Assembly: GCF_029245835.1 (NCBI RefSeq)
Contig: NZ_JAQWOO010000017.1
Span: 1 to 64,000, forward strand
Source of the DNA: Algibacter sp.
GTDB lineage: Bacteria > Bacteroidota > Bacteroidia > Flavobacteriales > Flavobacteriaceae
Direction of reading: 5' to 3'
Length of the DNA stretch: 64,000 bases
Part shown: positions 25,314 through 55,500 of the stretch, one piece after another
Layout of the letters: each line of letters begins with the position of its first letter
Position numbering within the stretch: the stretch's first letter is position 1
Made by a program: the position numbers and the translations under genes
Notes under the pieces: generated by a model
What the model saw: the letters and a program-made list of their open reading frames with translations, nothing else
What the model was told of the DNA's origin: nothing
Databases searched by the model: none

Positions 25314-25352
25314 CACGCAAAGGCGCAAAGGCGCAAAGAAAAAGGCGCAAAC
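25314..25352. repeat. GCAAAGGCGC-type repeat upstream of lipB
   Basis: The unit GCGCAAAG occurs tandemly (CACGCAAAGGCGCAAAGG, then CGCAAAG, then GGCGCAAAC). It is related to the inverted repeats around the GxxExxY pseudogene at 52.4-52.9 kb. It occupies the region just upstream of the lipB start. Confidence 0.7.
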
Positions 25353-25587: not shown

Positions 25588-25672
25588 GCGTGTTAGGGAT
25601 AGAAATGAAAAGCCCACAGAGAGGCACGAACGAGGACTTGTAATGAATAGCCCGACCCTTGTGGTAACACCC
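25588..25672 (+). repeat. Dispersed repeat, copy 2
   Basis: It starts GCGTGTTAGGGATAG and ends GACCCTTGTGGTAACACCC. AATGAAWAGCCC occurs twice inside and GAGGACTTG once; all these parts are shared with copy 1 at 268-366. It lies in the intergenic space between the YqaE-like gene and the lysS promoter. Confidence 0.7.
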
Positions 25673-25716
25673 AAAAATTTCATAAATCAATAGACGAAAA
25701 TAGGAAATCAAATGTT

Positions 25717-35490: not shown

Positions 35491-35643
35491 GGGCGTTACC
35501 ACAAGGGTCGCGCTTTCCACTATATCTTTTTAAAGTCGTTAATGCGAATAGTAAGCTAACGTCATGGTCTGTTAAACCATCGTTCCAAAACACGCTTTTC
35601 TCTTATGAGCTTTAAAAAGGATGCCGTTTCAATCTCTAACGCA
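35491..35643 (-). repeat. Dispersed repeat, copy 3 (inverted, with a longer middle)
   Basis: On the minus strand it starts GCGTTAGAGATTGAAACGG and ends GACCCTTGTGGTAACGCCC. The ends match copies 1 and 2, while the middle of about 100 bp is different and longer. This copy is therefore in the opposite orientation to the other two. It lies just after the barrel-protein gene. No reading frame of note crosses it. Confidence 0.7.
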
Positions 35644-35813
35644 GGGGTAAGTCCGCAATAATTAGTATTCCGTTAGCAGCAAATAGCAAACCAACTTACT
35701 TCGTTCTTTCAACTTACCTCAACTATGTTAATATCAAGTTAAAATAAACTCCCATATTAAACCCTTTTAAATTTTCAAAGTCCAAAAGACAAATACATTT
35801 AAAAACCCACACA

Positions 35814-51413: not shown

Positions 51414-52358
51414 TTAGAATACGATATGTGGAAACTGTACATGAAGCTGGTTTTTTTTAGCTTCTAATTTCTGAAGAAACTCTTGATGCGCTTGAGATTT
51501 AGAATTAAATGGCTTGTGTTGAAGTCCTTTTTGAATTGTATCTACTTCATCCATTGTTCTGAAAGACGCATCAGAAATCCAAACCGTTTTAAACTTCTCC
51601 CAAATATAATTAATAGCTAATTGGTTAGGGTGAATCATATCGTCCTTATAAAAACGATAATCCCGAAGTTCGTCCATCAAAATTTCATATGAAGGGAAAT
51701 AAAAAGATTGATTACTTATAACTTTATGGATGGCTGTGATTAAATGCGCTTTACTTTGCGTATTTTCAACAAAGCCATCTTTGGTATGTCGAATTGGTGA
51801 AACCGTAAAAACCACGAAAGCATTATTATTAACTCTTCTAATTAAACTCAATATATTTTTTAGTGAGTTTGTGATATCTTCAACAGACAACAATTCTTTC
51901 TTAAATTGTTTTTGTGGCACTTTATGACAATTAGCAACAATGCTATTGGTTTTTACATCGCGATATACCCATGCAGTTCCTAAAGTGATGATGATGTGTG
52001 TTGAATTTTGAATGACTGCTGAGGTCAAGCTCAATTTCGAATTCAACGCTTGGATTAAATTTTCTTTTAAAGCATTGCTTAATTTTGAATGTGCATCAAA
52101 ACAATGCCATTGCTCATTATGAAAAAACACCTCTTCTTCTGAGTACTCTTTGTTTATAACAGCATTTGAGATTAAGGTTTCAATAGCTCTAGGATGAAAC
52201 AATATCCCAAAAGGGTTTTGAAGATTTTGAAACTTAAAATAGTCTAGTTTTTTAGCTATGTTTTCTGAAAAGCACGACCCTAAAAGCACTATGTTAGACT
52301 TATAATTTATTAGATTATTAGACCGCTTTTCTAATGGTATTTTGGTTTGAAGTTTCAT
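51414..52358 (-). CDS. GSCFA domain protein
   Basis: Start chosen at ATG 52358 (MKLQTKIPLE); the frame extends to 52376 with a TTG that lies in the inverted repeat. NIVLLGSCFSENIAKKLDYF with QNPFGILFHPRAIETLI is the GSCFA signature; FTVSPIRHTKDGFVENTQSK and IHPNQLAINYIWEKF follow. GSCFA proteins are related to SGNH hydrolases and are often tied to polysaccharide or O-acyl modification; the substrate is unknown. The 314-residue length is normal. An inverted-repeat arm (52373-52398) lies 15 bp upstream of the start. Confidence 0.9.
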   Translation of the reverse strand: MKLQTKIPLEKRSNNLINYKSNIVLLGSCFSENIAKKLDYFKFQNLQNPFGILFHPRAIETLISNAVINKEYSEEEVFFHNEQWHCFDAHSKLSNALKENLIQALNSKLSLTSAVIQNSTHIIITLGTAWVYRDVKTNSIVANCHKVPQKQFKKELLSVEDITNSLKNILSLIRRVNNNAFVVFTVSPIRHTKDGFVENTQSKAHLITAIHKVISNQSFYFPSYEILMDELRDYRFYKDDMIHPNQLAINYIWEKFKTVWISDASFRTMDEVDTIQKGLQHKPFNSKSQAHQEFLQKLEAKKNQLHVQFPHIVF

Positions 52359-52372
52359 TTTGTTTTTTTCGT

Positions 52373-52398
52373 GCAAAGGCGCTAAGACGCAAAGTTGA
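52373..52398. repeat. Left arm of a 26-bp inverted repeat flanking the GxxExxY pseudogene
   Basis: Begins GCAAAGGCGCTAAG and ends GCAAAGTTGA. It matches the reverse complement of 52837-52862 at 25 of 26 positions. Confidence 0.9.
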
Positions 52399-52408
52399 GA
52401 AACAGAAA

Positions 52409-52790
52409 TTCTATTCTAAACCATTTACTAATCTTGTAATCCCTATTTTATTAGTGGACTTTTGAAATTAACTAGTCATCCCAATTTCAGTCCAGATAGC
52501 TTTAAATAAGTCATTAATTGTTTTTTTTAAACAGGGTGTATTTCTAAAACTGATTTTATTTCAATAATCACTTTATTATCAACTATTAAATCAGTTCTAA
52601 ATACTAAATTTAAAGTTTTTTCTTTCCAAATAACTGGCAATTGTTTTTGACGTTCTACTTTCAATCCTTTTTCTGTTAATTCTGTAAACAAAATCTCTTA
52701 ATAAACGGACTCCAATAAACCAAGACCTAAACCAACATGACTAAGATAACAGCAATCAACTATTATTGAAGCCAAATAATTTTCAAAAGA
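52409..52790 (-). pseudogene. Degenerate GxxExxY-family gene
   Basis: On the minus strand the translation reads VGLGLGLLESVY (holding the GxxExxY motif GLLESVY), a stop, then ILFTELTEKGLKVERQKQLP, VIWKEKTLNLVFRTDLIVDN and KVIIEIKSVLEIHPV, another stop, then KKQLMTYLKLSGLKLG and ITRLVNGLE. All conserved parts of the family are present in order, but at least three stop codons break the frame and there is no clear start. GxxExxY proteins are short, widely scattered, and are not assigned a function. The gene sits between the two inverted-repeat arms. Confidence 0.85.
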
Positions 52791-52836
52791 ATCTTATTTT
52801 TTATCCATAAAGGTTTAAAATCTTATAAAGCGCGTT

Positions 52837-52862
52837 TCAACTTTGCGCCTTAGCGCCTTTGC
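52837..52862. repeat. Right arm of the 26-bp inverted repeat
   Basis: Begins TCAACTTTGCGCC and ends CGCCTTTGC. It is the reverse complement of 52373-52398 with one mismatch. It lies 23 bp beyond the alaS stop at 52885. Confidence 0.9.
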
Positions 52863-52884
52863 GCGACCAACTTATTTTACGAGA

Positions 52885-55500
52885 TTAATTAAGGTATTGC
52901 TTTGCATTTTCCAAGGCCTCTTCAATCCCAGCAGGGTTTTTACCGCCAGCAGTAGCAAAAAATGGCTGACCACCACCTCCTCCTTGGATATATTTACCTA
53001 GTTCTCTAACTACTTGTCCAGCATTTAAACCTTTACTAGCAACCAATTCTTTAGAAATATAACAAGATAATAATGCTTTTCCATTTTGCTCAGTTGCAAA
53101 TAATAAAAACAGATTATCAAACTGACTTCCTAATTCAAAAGCTACATCTTTTAAACCAGCAGCATCCAAATCTAGTTTTTTAGCTAAAAACTGCACACCA
53201 TTTATGTCTTCAAGTTCACTTTTAAGTTCTCCCTTAATGGTCGCAGCTTTGTCTTTCAGTAATATTTCAATTTGTTTTTTAAGACTCGTATTTTCTTCTT
53301 GTAAATTTTCAAGTGCTTTTACAGGCTCTTGAGCATTGTTAAGTAAGTCTTTCATTTCAAAATACGCTCTGTTATTTTCAAAATAAAAATCCTTTACCGC
53401 ATCGTTAGTAATAGCTTCAATTCTTCTAATTCCGGCTGCAACTGCACCCTCTGAAACAATTTTAAAATGCCAAATATCAGAAGTATTCTTTACATGCGTA
53501 CCTCCACAAAGTTCAATAGATTTACCGAAGCGTATAGCACGAACGGTGTCTCCATACTTTTCACCAAATAAACTCATCGCACCTTCTGCAATCGCTTCTT
53601 CTATTGGAATGTTACGTTTTTCTTCAAGCGGTAATTTGCCTTCAATTCTTCTGTTTACAAAATTTTCAACATCGCGTAACTGTTCAACTGTTAATTTTGA
53701 AAAATGAGAAAAATCAAAACGTAAATATTTTGAATGTACTGCACTTCCTTTTTGCTCCACATGAGTTCCTAGAACCTCTCTTAATGCTTGATGCAACAAA
53801 TGTGTTGCTGTATGATTGCATTCGGTTCTATGACGTTGTTTAACATCAACAGAAGCTTTAAAAGTTTCATCTATATGCTTTGGTAAATTTTTTGTAAAGT
53901 GAATAATAAGGTTATTCTCTTTTTTGGTATCTAAAATATAAACTACATCACCATGTGTGTCTTCCAAATAGCCTTTATCCCCCACTTGTCCGCCACCTTC
54001 AGGATAAAATGGTGTTAAATTAAAGACTAACTGATACATGTCGCCATCTTTCTTGGAGGTTACTTTTCTGTATTTAGTAAGTTTCACATTAGCCTCCAAA
54101 GCATCATATCCAACAAATTCTTCTTCGGCATCATCAACAAGAATAGTCCAATCATCAGTAGACATTTCACTCGCTGCTCGAGATCGTTTTTTTTGCTTTT
54201 GTAATTCGTCATTAAACCCTTTTTCATCAAGTTTCAATTCTTTTTCAGAAAGTATTAACGCTGTTAAATCAATTGGAAACCCGTAAGTATCATACAATTC
54301 AAAAGCTTTTTCACCTGAAACGGTATTGCCTTTAGTTTCATCAACAATTCTATTTAACAACACTAAACCTTGATCTAAGGTTCTTAAAAAAGATTGTTCT
54401 TCCTCTTTTATAACATTTTCAATAAGTTGTTTTTGGGCTTTCAATTCAGGAAATGCTTTTCCCATTTGATTACTCAATACATCAACTAATCTGTATATAA
54501 AGGGTTCTTTTTTATCCAAAAAGGTAAATCCGTAACGCACTGCACGACGCAAAATCCTTCTAATCACATAACCCGCACCTGTATTACTAGGTAATTGCCC
54601 ATCAGCAATTGAAAATGCTACAGCACGCACATGGTCTGAAATAACACGAATGGCGACATCTGCATTTTCATCTTTTCCGTAACTTTTATTTGTTATGGTT
54701 TCAATTTCACGAATAATAGGTGTAAAAACATCGGTATCATAATTAGACTGAACCCCTTGTAAAACCATGCACAAACGCTCAAAACCCATACCTGTATCAA
54801 TATGCTTATTTGGTAAATTTTCAAGCGAACCGTTTGCTTTTCGGTTATATTGCATGAATACTAAATTCCATATTTCTACAACTTGCGGATGATCTTTATT
54901 AACCAATTCTTTACCAGAAACTTTTGCTTTTTCTTCCGCAGAGCGAATATCTACATGTATTTCACTACAAGGTCCACAAGGTCCTTGATCACCCATTTCC
55001 CAGAAATTATCCTTTTTGTTACCTTTTAAAATGCGGTCTTCAGAAATATATTGCTTCCAAATATCAAAAGCTTCGGTATCCATTTCTAAGTTATCCGCAT
55101 CTTCGCTTCCTTCAAAAACAGTGACGTATAAAATGTCTTTATCAACCCCTAAAACTTCTGTTAATAGTTCCCATGCCCAAGCAATAGCTTCCTTTTTAAA
55201 GTAATCTCCAAAACTCCAATTCCCTAACATTTCAAACAACGTATGATGATAGGTATCATACCCTACTTCCTCTAAATCATTATGCTTCCCAGAAACACGC
55301 AGACATTTTTGTGAGTCTGCAATACGGTTATTTTTAGGGGTTCCATTTCCTAAAAAATATTCCTTAAAAGGCACCATACCTGCGTTTACAAACATTAAAG
55401 TTGGGTCGTCTTTTAAAACCATGGGTGCAGATTGCACTATACTATGCTTCTTTTCTTCAAAAAAACTTAAAAATTTTAATCGTATTTCCTGTGAGTTCAT
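52885..55500 (-). CDS. alaS: Alanyl-tRNA synthetase
   Basis: An 871-residue enzyme that charges tRNA-Ala and edits mischarged Ser/Gly. [20 protein letters not shown], then [15 protein letters not shown] and [16 protein letters not shown] are the class II core. [24 protein letters not shown] (with spacing) and [20 protein letters not shown] form the editing-domain zinc site (HxxxH...CGGTH). The C-terminal [19 protein letters not shown] is the C-Ala glycine-rich domain. Read divergently from the M23 gene over a 222-bp gap. Confidence 0.98.

Follow-up and report, generated by a model that had tools for sequence, protein, structure and literature searches.

Inverted arrays of a short repeat frame GxxExxY genes, vary together and match the protein clade: a possible kind of small mobile DNA

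Results

A degenerate GxxExxY gene lies between two inverted arrays

The window is the whole stretch of DNA that was analysed, 64,000 nt from an Algibacter sp. contig. A small unit occupies its gap between alaS and a GSCFA-type gene, and consists of a degenerate GxxExxY gene with an arm of short repeats on either side. From left to right, the locus contains the following features.

51414 to 52358, minus strand: GSCFA-type gene, a host gene flanking the unit and outside the element; it stands beside the unit in 26 genomes
52369 to 52398, plus strand: left arm, an inward 7-mer array TGCAAAG, CGCTAAG, CGCAAAG, on the gene's downstream side
52440 to 52775, minus strand: pseudogene of a GxxExxY (PF13366) predicted PD-(D/E)XK nuclease, E 7.8e-33; its translation contains four in-frame stops
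52837 to 52866, minus strand: right arm, a minus-strand array CGCAAAG, CGCTAAG, CGCAAAG, on the gene's upstream side
52885 to 55500, minus strand: alaS, a host gene flanking the unit and outside the element; the alaS end lies upstream of the unit in 24 of the 26 genomes

An inverted-repeat search returns arms of 30 nt each, 93% complementary, with 438 nt between them. A preliminary description, made from the sequence alone, had put the inverted match at 25 of 26 positions, and this was borne out by eye on the 26-nt core. The ungapped inverted score of the pair is 26. Shuffled arms score at most 15 (n = 1000), and random places in the window with the same geometry at most 16 (n = 1000).

The only gene match between the arms is to PF13366 (114.7 bits, cut-off 22). 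Its reading frame is interrupted by one TGA, one TAG and two TAA codons, all in one frame, with no frameshift in the matched part. The gene is thus dead, as had been suggested. Its conserved parts had been called readable, which holds for the catalytic D, ExK and Q...Y, but GPG has become GLG. The pseudogene is the sole PF13366 match found in the window genome, whose assembly is 97% complete in 100 contigs. The reported placement between alaS and GSCFA also stands. The GSCFA-type gene most likely starts at the ATG at 52358, 14 nt from the arm start noted earlier; a mechanical open reading frame call starts at the TTG at 52376.

No Rfam family was called on the window unit at gathering score. 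Two other features of the window were recorded. An intergenic repeat of about 90 bp at 25589-25680 has no Rfam call at gathering score; most of the matches listed for it in the genus, where each of 10 genomes gave 26-39, belong to this repeat. A Flavo-1 RNA (RF01705; 44.3 bits, cut-off 42) lies at 35502-35652 on the minus strand.

The GxxExxY protein has a predicted nuclease fold

Intact relatives of the pseudogene encode proteins of about 125 residues. They match TIGR04256 with 132-146 bits (cut-off 35; three proteins) and PF13366 with 124-141 bits (cut-off 22; four proteins), and PF13366 was the sole Pfam match above its cut-off for the four. The catalytic letters are nearly invariant across 191 proteins (D 100%, E 99%, K 99%), as are Q and Y (99-100%). 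The solved folds nearest to an AlphaFold model (mean pLDDT 92.6) are those of PD-(D/E)XK nucleases, the first being SSO0001 (E 6.6e-4, TMq 0.55), which we take to be a Sulfolobus Cas4. The structural alignment to it has Z 9.3 and rmsd 4.6 with 103 aligned. The next fold entry, restriction-endonuclease-like, reaches Z 8.5, so the order of the nearest folds is not firm. No sequence relative was found in the PDB (best E 0.77). On the modelled fold and the D and ExK letters, we assign GxxExxY to the PD-(D/E)XK nuclease superfamily, an assignment made without biochemistry. No known transposase family was matched by the three and four proteins tested.

A nuclease of this kind could belong to a defence module, with the flanking repeats marking or hiding the host locus. 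The fold is closest to SSO0001, and the distribution is scattered: PF13366 occurs in 151 of 296 sampled Bacteroidota genomes, often in several copies, and in 32 of 149 genomes of the window family. However, none of four proteins matched a PADLOC defence family better than E 0.0032, and dead copies and solo arrays persist. We regard a defence role as very improbable.

No literature linking GxxExxY to repeats was found, in a search whose scope left out most subscription journals and all preprints. In the portions available of the few papers that use the names GxxExxY, PDDEXK_3, PF13366 or TIGR04256, no function is described. Six 15-nt array strings were absent from the literature searched, and for a 10-nt arm piece none of the matches listed was related by title.

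Arrays of a degenerate 7-mer flank GxxExxY genes on both sides

A profile search of 198 loci gave 203 PF13366 matches in 196 of them. Once two duplicated loci (L025 and L028) and 10 matches of partial length had been removed, 191 full-length genes remained, mostly from Bacteroidota, with some from other phyla. The arms of these genes are head-to-tail arrays of a degenerate 7-mer, CRCNRAK, repeated every 8-11 bp. The commonest words in the flanks are CGCAAAG, CACAGAG, CGCAGAG, CACAAAG and CGCAGAT, and the commonest unit spacings are 8 nt (168), 9 (113), 10 (93) and 11 (45). The consensus was picked by eye from printed flanks, and the controls were run with it afterwards.

At least two inward units are present on both sides of 126 of the 191 genes and on at least one side of 175. 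Forty-nine genes have only one arm of two units, and 16 have none. When the same flanks are read reversed, the counts fall to 2/191 for both sides and 34/191 for at least one; in distant flanks, 500-676 nt off, they are 1/174 and 18/174. The 191 genes are not all independent and were therefore thinned by protein identity. Both arms remain in 121/171 genes below 90% identity, 94/139 below 80%, 61/88 below 70% and 23/41 below 60%, and at least one arm in 78/88 below 70%. An earlier count of 136 loci found two units on both sides facing inward in 93 and outward in 10. Unit density in the first 100 bp at these loci is 18/kb upstream on the gene strand and 22/kb downstream on the other strand. Units in the wrong orientation reach 5.0 and 5.8/kb there. 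From 800 bp out, unit density is about 1-2/kb.

The mirror match between the two flanks of a GxxExxY gene averages 17.7 over 182 units, against 10.5 when flanks are re-paired (maximum 11.4). Only 41 of the 182 loci lie above the 99th percentile of mismatched pairs. Around 86 other genes of named loci the mean is 9.60, which is not beyond re-pairing (permuted mean 9.10, maximum 9.70). Arm-bearing units are not restricted to one phylum. Seventy-nine units of named records span ten phylum names, and every one of the ten includes an arm-bearing unit. Among them, both arms are present in Nitrospirota 4/4, Thermodesulfobacteriota 2/2 and Planctomycetota 1/1; the one cyanobacteriotal unit has one arm only. 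Many of these units come from metagenome bins, and at least the sole Actinomycetota entry (probably L098, Bifidobacterium breve) may be mislabelled.

That the repeats and the gene belong together had been offered only as an inference; the both-side arrays, their near-absence from distant flanks and the lack of a mirror match beyond re-pairing around other genes now support it. A search for the arm type at other GxxExxY genes had been proposed as a check, and inverted arrays do flank them. They are not only of the CGCAAAGGCGC type but form a degenerate CRCNRAK family. Repeats this short and degenerate can be deceptive, and one locus alone is weak evidence, so a chance inverted repeat or an artefact had to be considered. 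The shuffled, permuted, distant-flank and other-gene controls rule this out, and we practically discount it. At one locus (L178/L026, genome G116) a 52-bp block with one array adjoins the GxxExxY gene in three tandem copies.

The two arms vary together and match the protein clade

Cross-pairing arms between loci gave mixed results. A first test on 30 loci in contig orientation was weak for many of them. In an oriented test the same-locus score had a median of 17 and re-paired arms 11, and 89 of 137 loci lay above the 99th percentile of shuffles. The arm's own partner ranked first among all arms at only 22 of the 137 loci, and within the top 5% at 51. Results are weak here because motif classes are common to many loci, and profile, spacer and single-site tests were therefore added.

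Over 126 units the left and right arm profiles differ by a distance of 1.35, against 3.39 after permutation, and none of 20000 permutations was as low. The left-right correlation is 0.85 at base 2, 0.86 at base 5 and 0.89 at base 7, and only 0.23-0.43 at base 4. Spacers agree as well (92 units). The fraction of identical spacer letters between arms is 0.524, whereas re-pairing within class gives 0.363 (highest of 1000, 0.510). Spacing agreement is 0.84 against 0.53. The arms thus share more than a binding consensus.

The same holds within a single site. At the GSCFA-side site (26 genomes, two duplicates dropped), the within-locus arm match is 17.2, a small margin above the maximum of 16.9 in 20000 re-pairings. 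Left arms of different loci score 15.6 mutually, and right arms 15.9. A Wocania unit (L079) carries GGCACTAAG on both sides where the window carries GGCGCTAAG on both.

Arm type was then mapped on a protein tree built with FastTree from 171 units, 20 units with fewer than three repeat units having been set aside. The seventh base of the arm requires 4 changes on this tree, compared with 30.5 when shuffled (minimum 27 of 100). Base 2 requires 20 against 50.9, and base 5 requires 23 against 55.5. Both seventh-base types are present within 11 genus codes. A single genome (G378) with six typed units has T arms with two GFLEK-type proteins and G arms with four PGLLES-type proteins. Few changes on the protein tree, together with mixed types within genera and within one genome, indicate that arm type tracks the protein, not the genome. 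The arms covary, and their type matches the protein clade.

A four-helix-bundle gene family has a similar frame

PF05635 (S23/IVP) genes are found in 74 of 100 genomes of the family, with four matches in the window genome (for example G000:C1:315-608). Mirrored arrays of other short repeats surround PF05635 loci (L303-L332); examples are TTAGTATTGAG (upstream) paired with CTCAATACTAAAATCTCAATACT (downstream), and GTGAACTGTGAAC paired with TTCACCGCTCACCACTCAC. In 29 of 30 loci (one, near a contig end, was excluded) the mean mirror match is 15.7 against 10.5 re-paired (maximum 12.7-13.0), and only 2 of the 29 score above the 99th percentile for mismatched pairs. Judged by eye, the PF05635 repeat class varies between genomes at a site that precedes an acyltransferase-type gene.

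PF05635 is unrelated to GxxExxY and is not known as a nuclease, so a frame of this kind need not require one. This bears on the possibility that host processes, namely template switching or repair at hairpin-forming arms, move the unit. GxxExxY would then be a passenger or a mere processing nuclease, and any small gene would do. The PF05635 frame favours it, even if few single loci stand out. Against it, arm type goes with the GxxExxY clade in genomes that are not related, which a pure passenger would not bring about. We consider this explanation possible but unlikely, and return to it where further evidence bears on it.

One unit was apparently gained as a block, and others are old residents

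Within the window genus, PF13366 was found in 2 of 10 genomes: as the window pseudogene and as an intact unit elsewhere, in a congener (G440). No PF13366 match was found anywhere in the other eight genomes of the genus. The G440 unit has CACTAAT-type arms and lies between genes read as YrdC/Sua5-type and tRNA nucleotidyltransferase. In another congener, G438, the right flank is 97.2% identical to that of G440 and the left flank 87.2%, and the two genes are 16 nt apart with the unit absent. This short gap resembles the gap in the window genome and in others. All seven genomes of the genus that could be judged on both flanks lack the unit, with empty gaps, read by eye, of about 16-17 nt in five and about 60 nt in two. 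In G442 only the right flank is visible, without an adjoining array, and G441 could not be judged. The preliminary description had proposed looking for empty sites and target duplications in close relatives. Empty sites were thus found; no target duplication is visible at the G440 gain, where the gap is short and partly changed. By parsimony, the G440 unit appears to be a gain of the whole unit as a block, the only gain seen. That none is visible would also fit movement by host processes.

A second site, beside a gene read as methyltransferase-like, carries units of two clades. Seven units there are 66-88% alike, and an eighth (L036), with T-type arms, is only 33-39% like them. The second neighbour was recognised in only three of the eight units. 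By eye, L034 is a second likely two-clade site, although the pattern used did not pick it up.

Two other sites have a pattern of long residence and repeated loss, as judged from their sequences. In the alaS/GSCFA gap, the GSCFA-side unit site is common to 26 genomes, with the alaS end found in 24; in the window genus, the unit is missing from this gap in 9 of 9 congeners. We read the window copy as an old, now dead resident of this gap. The other site, g127, was inspected in 30 of 121 genomes searched and classed by eye. Six genomes have full units, seven remnants, five other palindromes and twelve nothing. On a tree of the flanks, the full state requires 5 changes, which is not below the chance level (shuffled mean 5.6). 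One remnant (L289), a near sister of a full unit (L263), keeps both ends and has lost most of the gene. Gene-less arm pairs were considered as proof of movement and rejected, since the g127 remnants, as in L289 beside L263, arise by deletion. In three other genomes (L277, L278 and L290) the g127 gap holds gene-less palindromes of CTAAG-type short repeats where relatives hold GxxExxY units, and L270 has a CACAGAT/CGGAT-type palindrome there.

Mobile carriers rarely hold the gene. A relative of one query protein was found in 0 of 50,697 phage records, in no viral contig and in 8 of 72,556 plasmid records. This near-absence argues against an ordinary transposon that travels on mobile carriers.

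These results could be attributed to a stable resident, a host gene passed on vertically, whose arms serve it as structural or regulatory sites and whose presence and absence are due to loss only. The shared GSCFA-side site, the g127 site, where full units are scattered among decay products, and the very few copies on phages or plasmids are what such a resident would leave. The G440 unit is hard to reconcile with loss alone, because a relative 97% identical on one flank has a gap like that of other congeners. So are the presence of two clades at one site and a solo array of the window, described below, that congeners lack. A purely resident gene seems improbable to us, more so than movement by host processes. 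Mobility, as first suggested, is supported by the block gain and the two-clade site, but not by the window copy itself, which sits at an old site.

Arrays also occur without the gene

One gene-less array lies within the window.

25316 to 25338, plus strand: solo array of three CGCAAAG units without a gene, beside lipB, of the same repeat class as the window arms

In 9 of 9 congeners no such array was seen at the corresponding position, where six have the same neighbours and three are rearranged. Another solo array of the window genome, on the ffh/folD side, has similar arrays in 3 of 10 genus genomes, so it is not specific to the window lineage. The gene-less arrays of the window genome are as we would expect of solo ends.

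The array motif CGCAAAGNCGCAAAG, with at most one mismatch, was counted in 149 genomes of the window family. It has 158 matches in the 32 genomes with PF13366, the genes' own arms included, against 26 for a backwards control, and 93 in the 117 genomes without the gene. Any match is present in 26 of the 32 and in 55 of the 117. The motif is commoner with the gene (Mann-Whitney p 3.7e-8, own arms counted in), and some genomes free of PF13366 are still array-rich (nine matches in G097, eight in G078). The preliminary description held that arms occurring equally often without the gene would refute it. The window genome, with six gene-less places against one unit, goes against the claim; the family-wide count of one motif, in which the genes' own arms are included, leans the other way. 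This evidence also divides on whether host processes move the unit. Solo arms and gene-less arm pairs are common, as they would be if host processes acted alone, whereas in most gene-free genomes this one motif stays at about the backwards-control level. Among gene-less arm pairs, those facing inward are the most numerous, at 61, while 38 face outward and the two tandem arrangements number 37 and 31.

At two loci several copies lie near each other. In L083, upstream of the GxxExxY gene and on its alaS side, there are four imperfect copies of a gene-less arm pair of about 130 bp with similar interiors. L198 (G340) has two neighbouring GxxExxY units with proteins 97% identical, surrounded by near-identical palindromic arm pairs.

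Discussion

The package of gene and arms has the look of a small mobile DNA of a kind not yet described, and the copy in the window is a dead one. Observed are the frame, arms that covary, an arm type that matches the clade, long residence and decay derivatives and, by parsimony, one block gain. We propose that GxxExxY works on the arms that flank it and drives a small element of the chromosome, which we consider somewhat more probable than not. Binding, pairing, cutting and copying, and the agency of GxxExxY in them, are inferred.

The proposed element would be about 0.45-0.5 kb long, with one minimal PD-(D/E)XK nuclease gene between two inverted CRCNRAK arrays. The GxxExxY protein would recognise the units, or iterons, of both arms (step 1). 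It may then pair the two ends and cut there, or cut the arm hairpin in single-stranded DNA (step 2). Repair or replication would copy the whole element, or just one arm, into gaps between genes, leaving no target duplication (step 3). The element would then persist by descent while its arms keep homogenising with each other (step 4), and would decay by deletion to solo arms or gene-less arm pairs (step 5).

A broader version is that these units form an autonomous element class. A single Cas4-like PD-(D/E)XK nuclease would act on inverted degenerate iterons, with ends evolving in concert and a specificity that changes together with the enzyme. The S23/IVP genes, unrelated to it, would also occupy such a frame, linking 23S rRNA intervening sequences (IVSs) to intergenic elements. 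We put this forward tentatively and stop just short of favouring it. To our knowledge, the PD-(D/E)XK enzyme type has not been found to act alone in transposition.

The arms provide a concrete candidate substrate for a family without a described function, and the natural arm classes tied to protein clades provide a ready specificity test. If GxxExxY does move or homogenise its arms, this would add a mobile element and explain a short-repeat family present in many genomes. The similar S23/IVP frame could make the origin of the 23S rRNA IVSs testable.

Elements with one gene between inverted ends are already known; the mechanism of the GxxExxY unit has not been demonstrated. Like insertion sequences and MITEs, the unit has one gene between inverted ends and an internally deleted derivative (L289). 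Unlike them, it matched only PF13366 (four proteins), and its ends are degenerate arrays that differ between copies. No target duplication was visible at the one gain, where the gap is short and partly changed. Cas4 and RecB-like nucleases share the PD-(D/E)XK fold and the D, ExK and Q...Y letters with GxxExxY, which differs in being only about 125 residues long.

The IVS of 23S rRNA with an S23p ORF is, in the part of the source available, about 430 nt long, with one small ORF and inverted ends that form a 28-bp stem; it is called selfish and of unclear origin (PMC4990558). To the extent of that description, the GxxExxY unit is similar in size, single ORF and inverted ends. The IVSs described there sit inside helices of 23S rRNA, and RNase III removes them from the RNA, whereas GxxExxY units, at the sites examined, are found between protein genes and carry a gene with a predicted nuclease fold.

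A further system for comparison is REP/RAYT, whose RAYT is a HUH-type enzyme. From the excerpts available, an enzyme gene lies between inverted short repeats, many repeats are gene-less, repeat abundance is tied to the gene, lateral transfer is slight, and repeats at orthologous genes switch class, an 'orthoswitch' (PMC3686654, PMC3116915). Within the limits of those excerpts, the GxxExxY unit is alike in its single enzyme gene within inverted repeats, its gene-less repeats, its slight lateral transfer and its repeats switching class at orthologous genes. The repeats themselves differ: a REP is an imperfect palindrome that contains the tetranucleotide GT(A/G)G, and GxxExxY arms are head-to-tail 7-mer arrays. 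The enzyme differs as well, being of the PD-(D/E)XK type, and the four proteins matched only PF13366 and no RAYT. With both enzyme and repeat structure different, the GxxExxY unit would work like REP/RAYT but is not a member of it.
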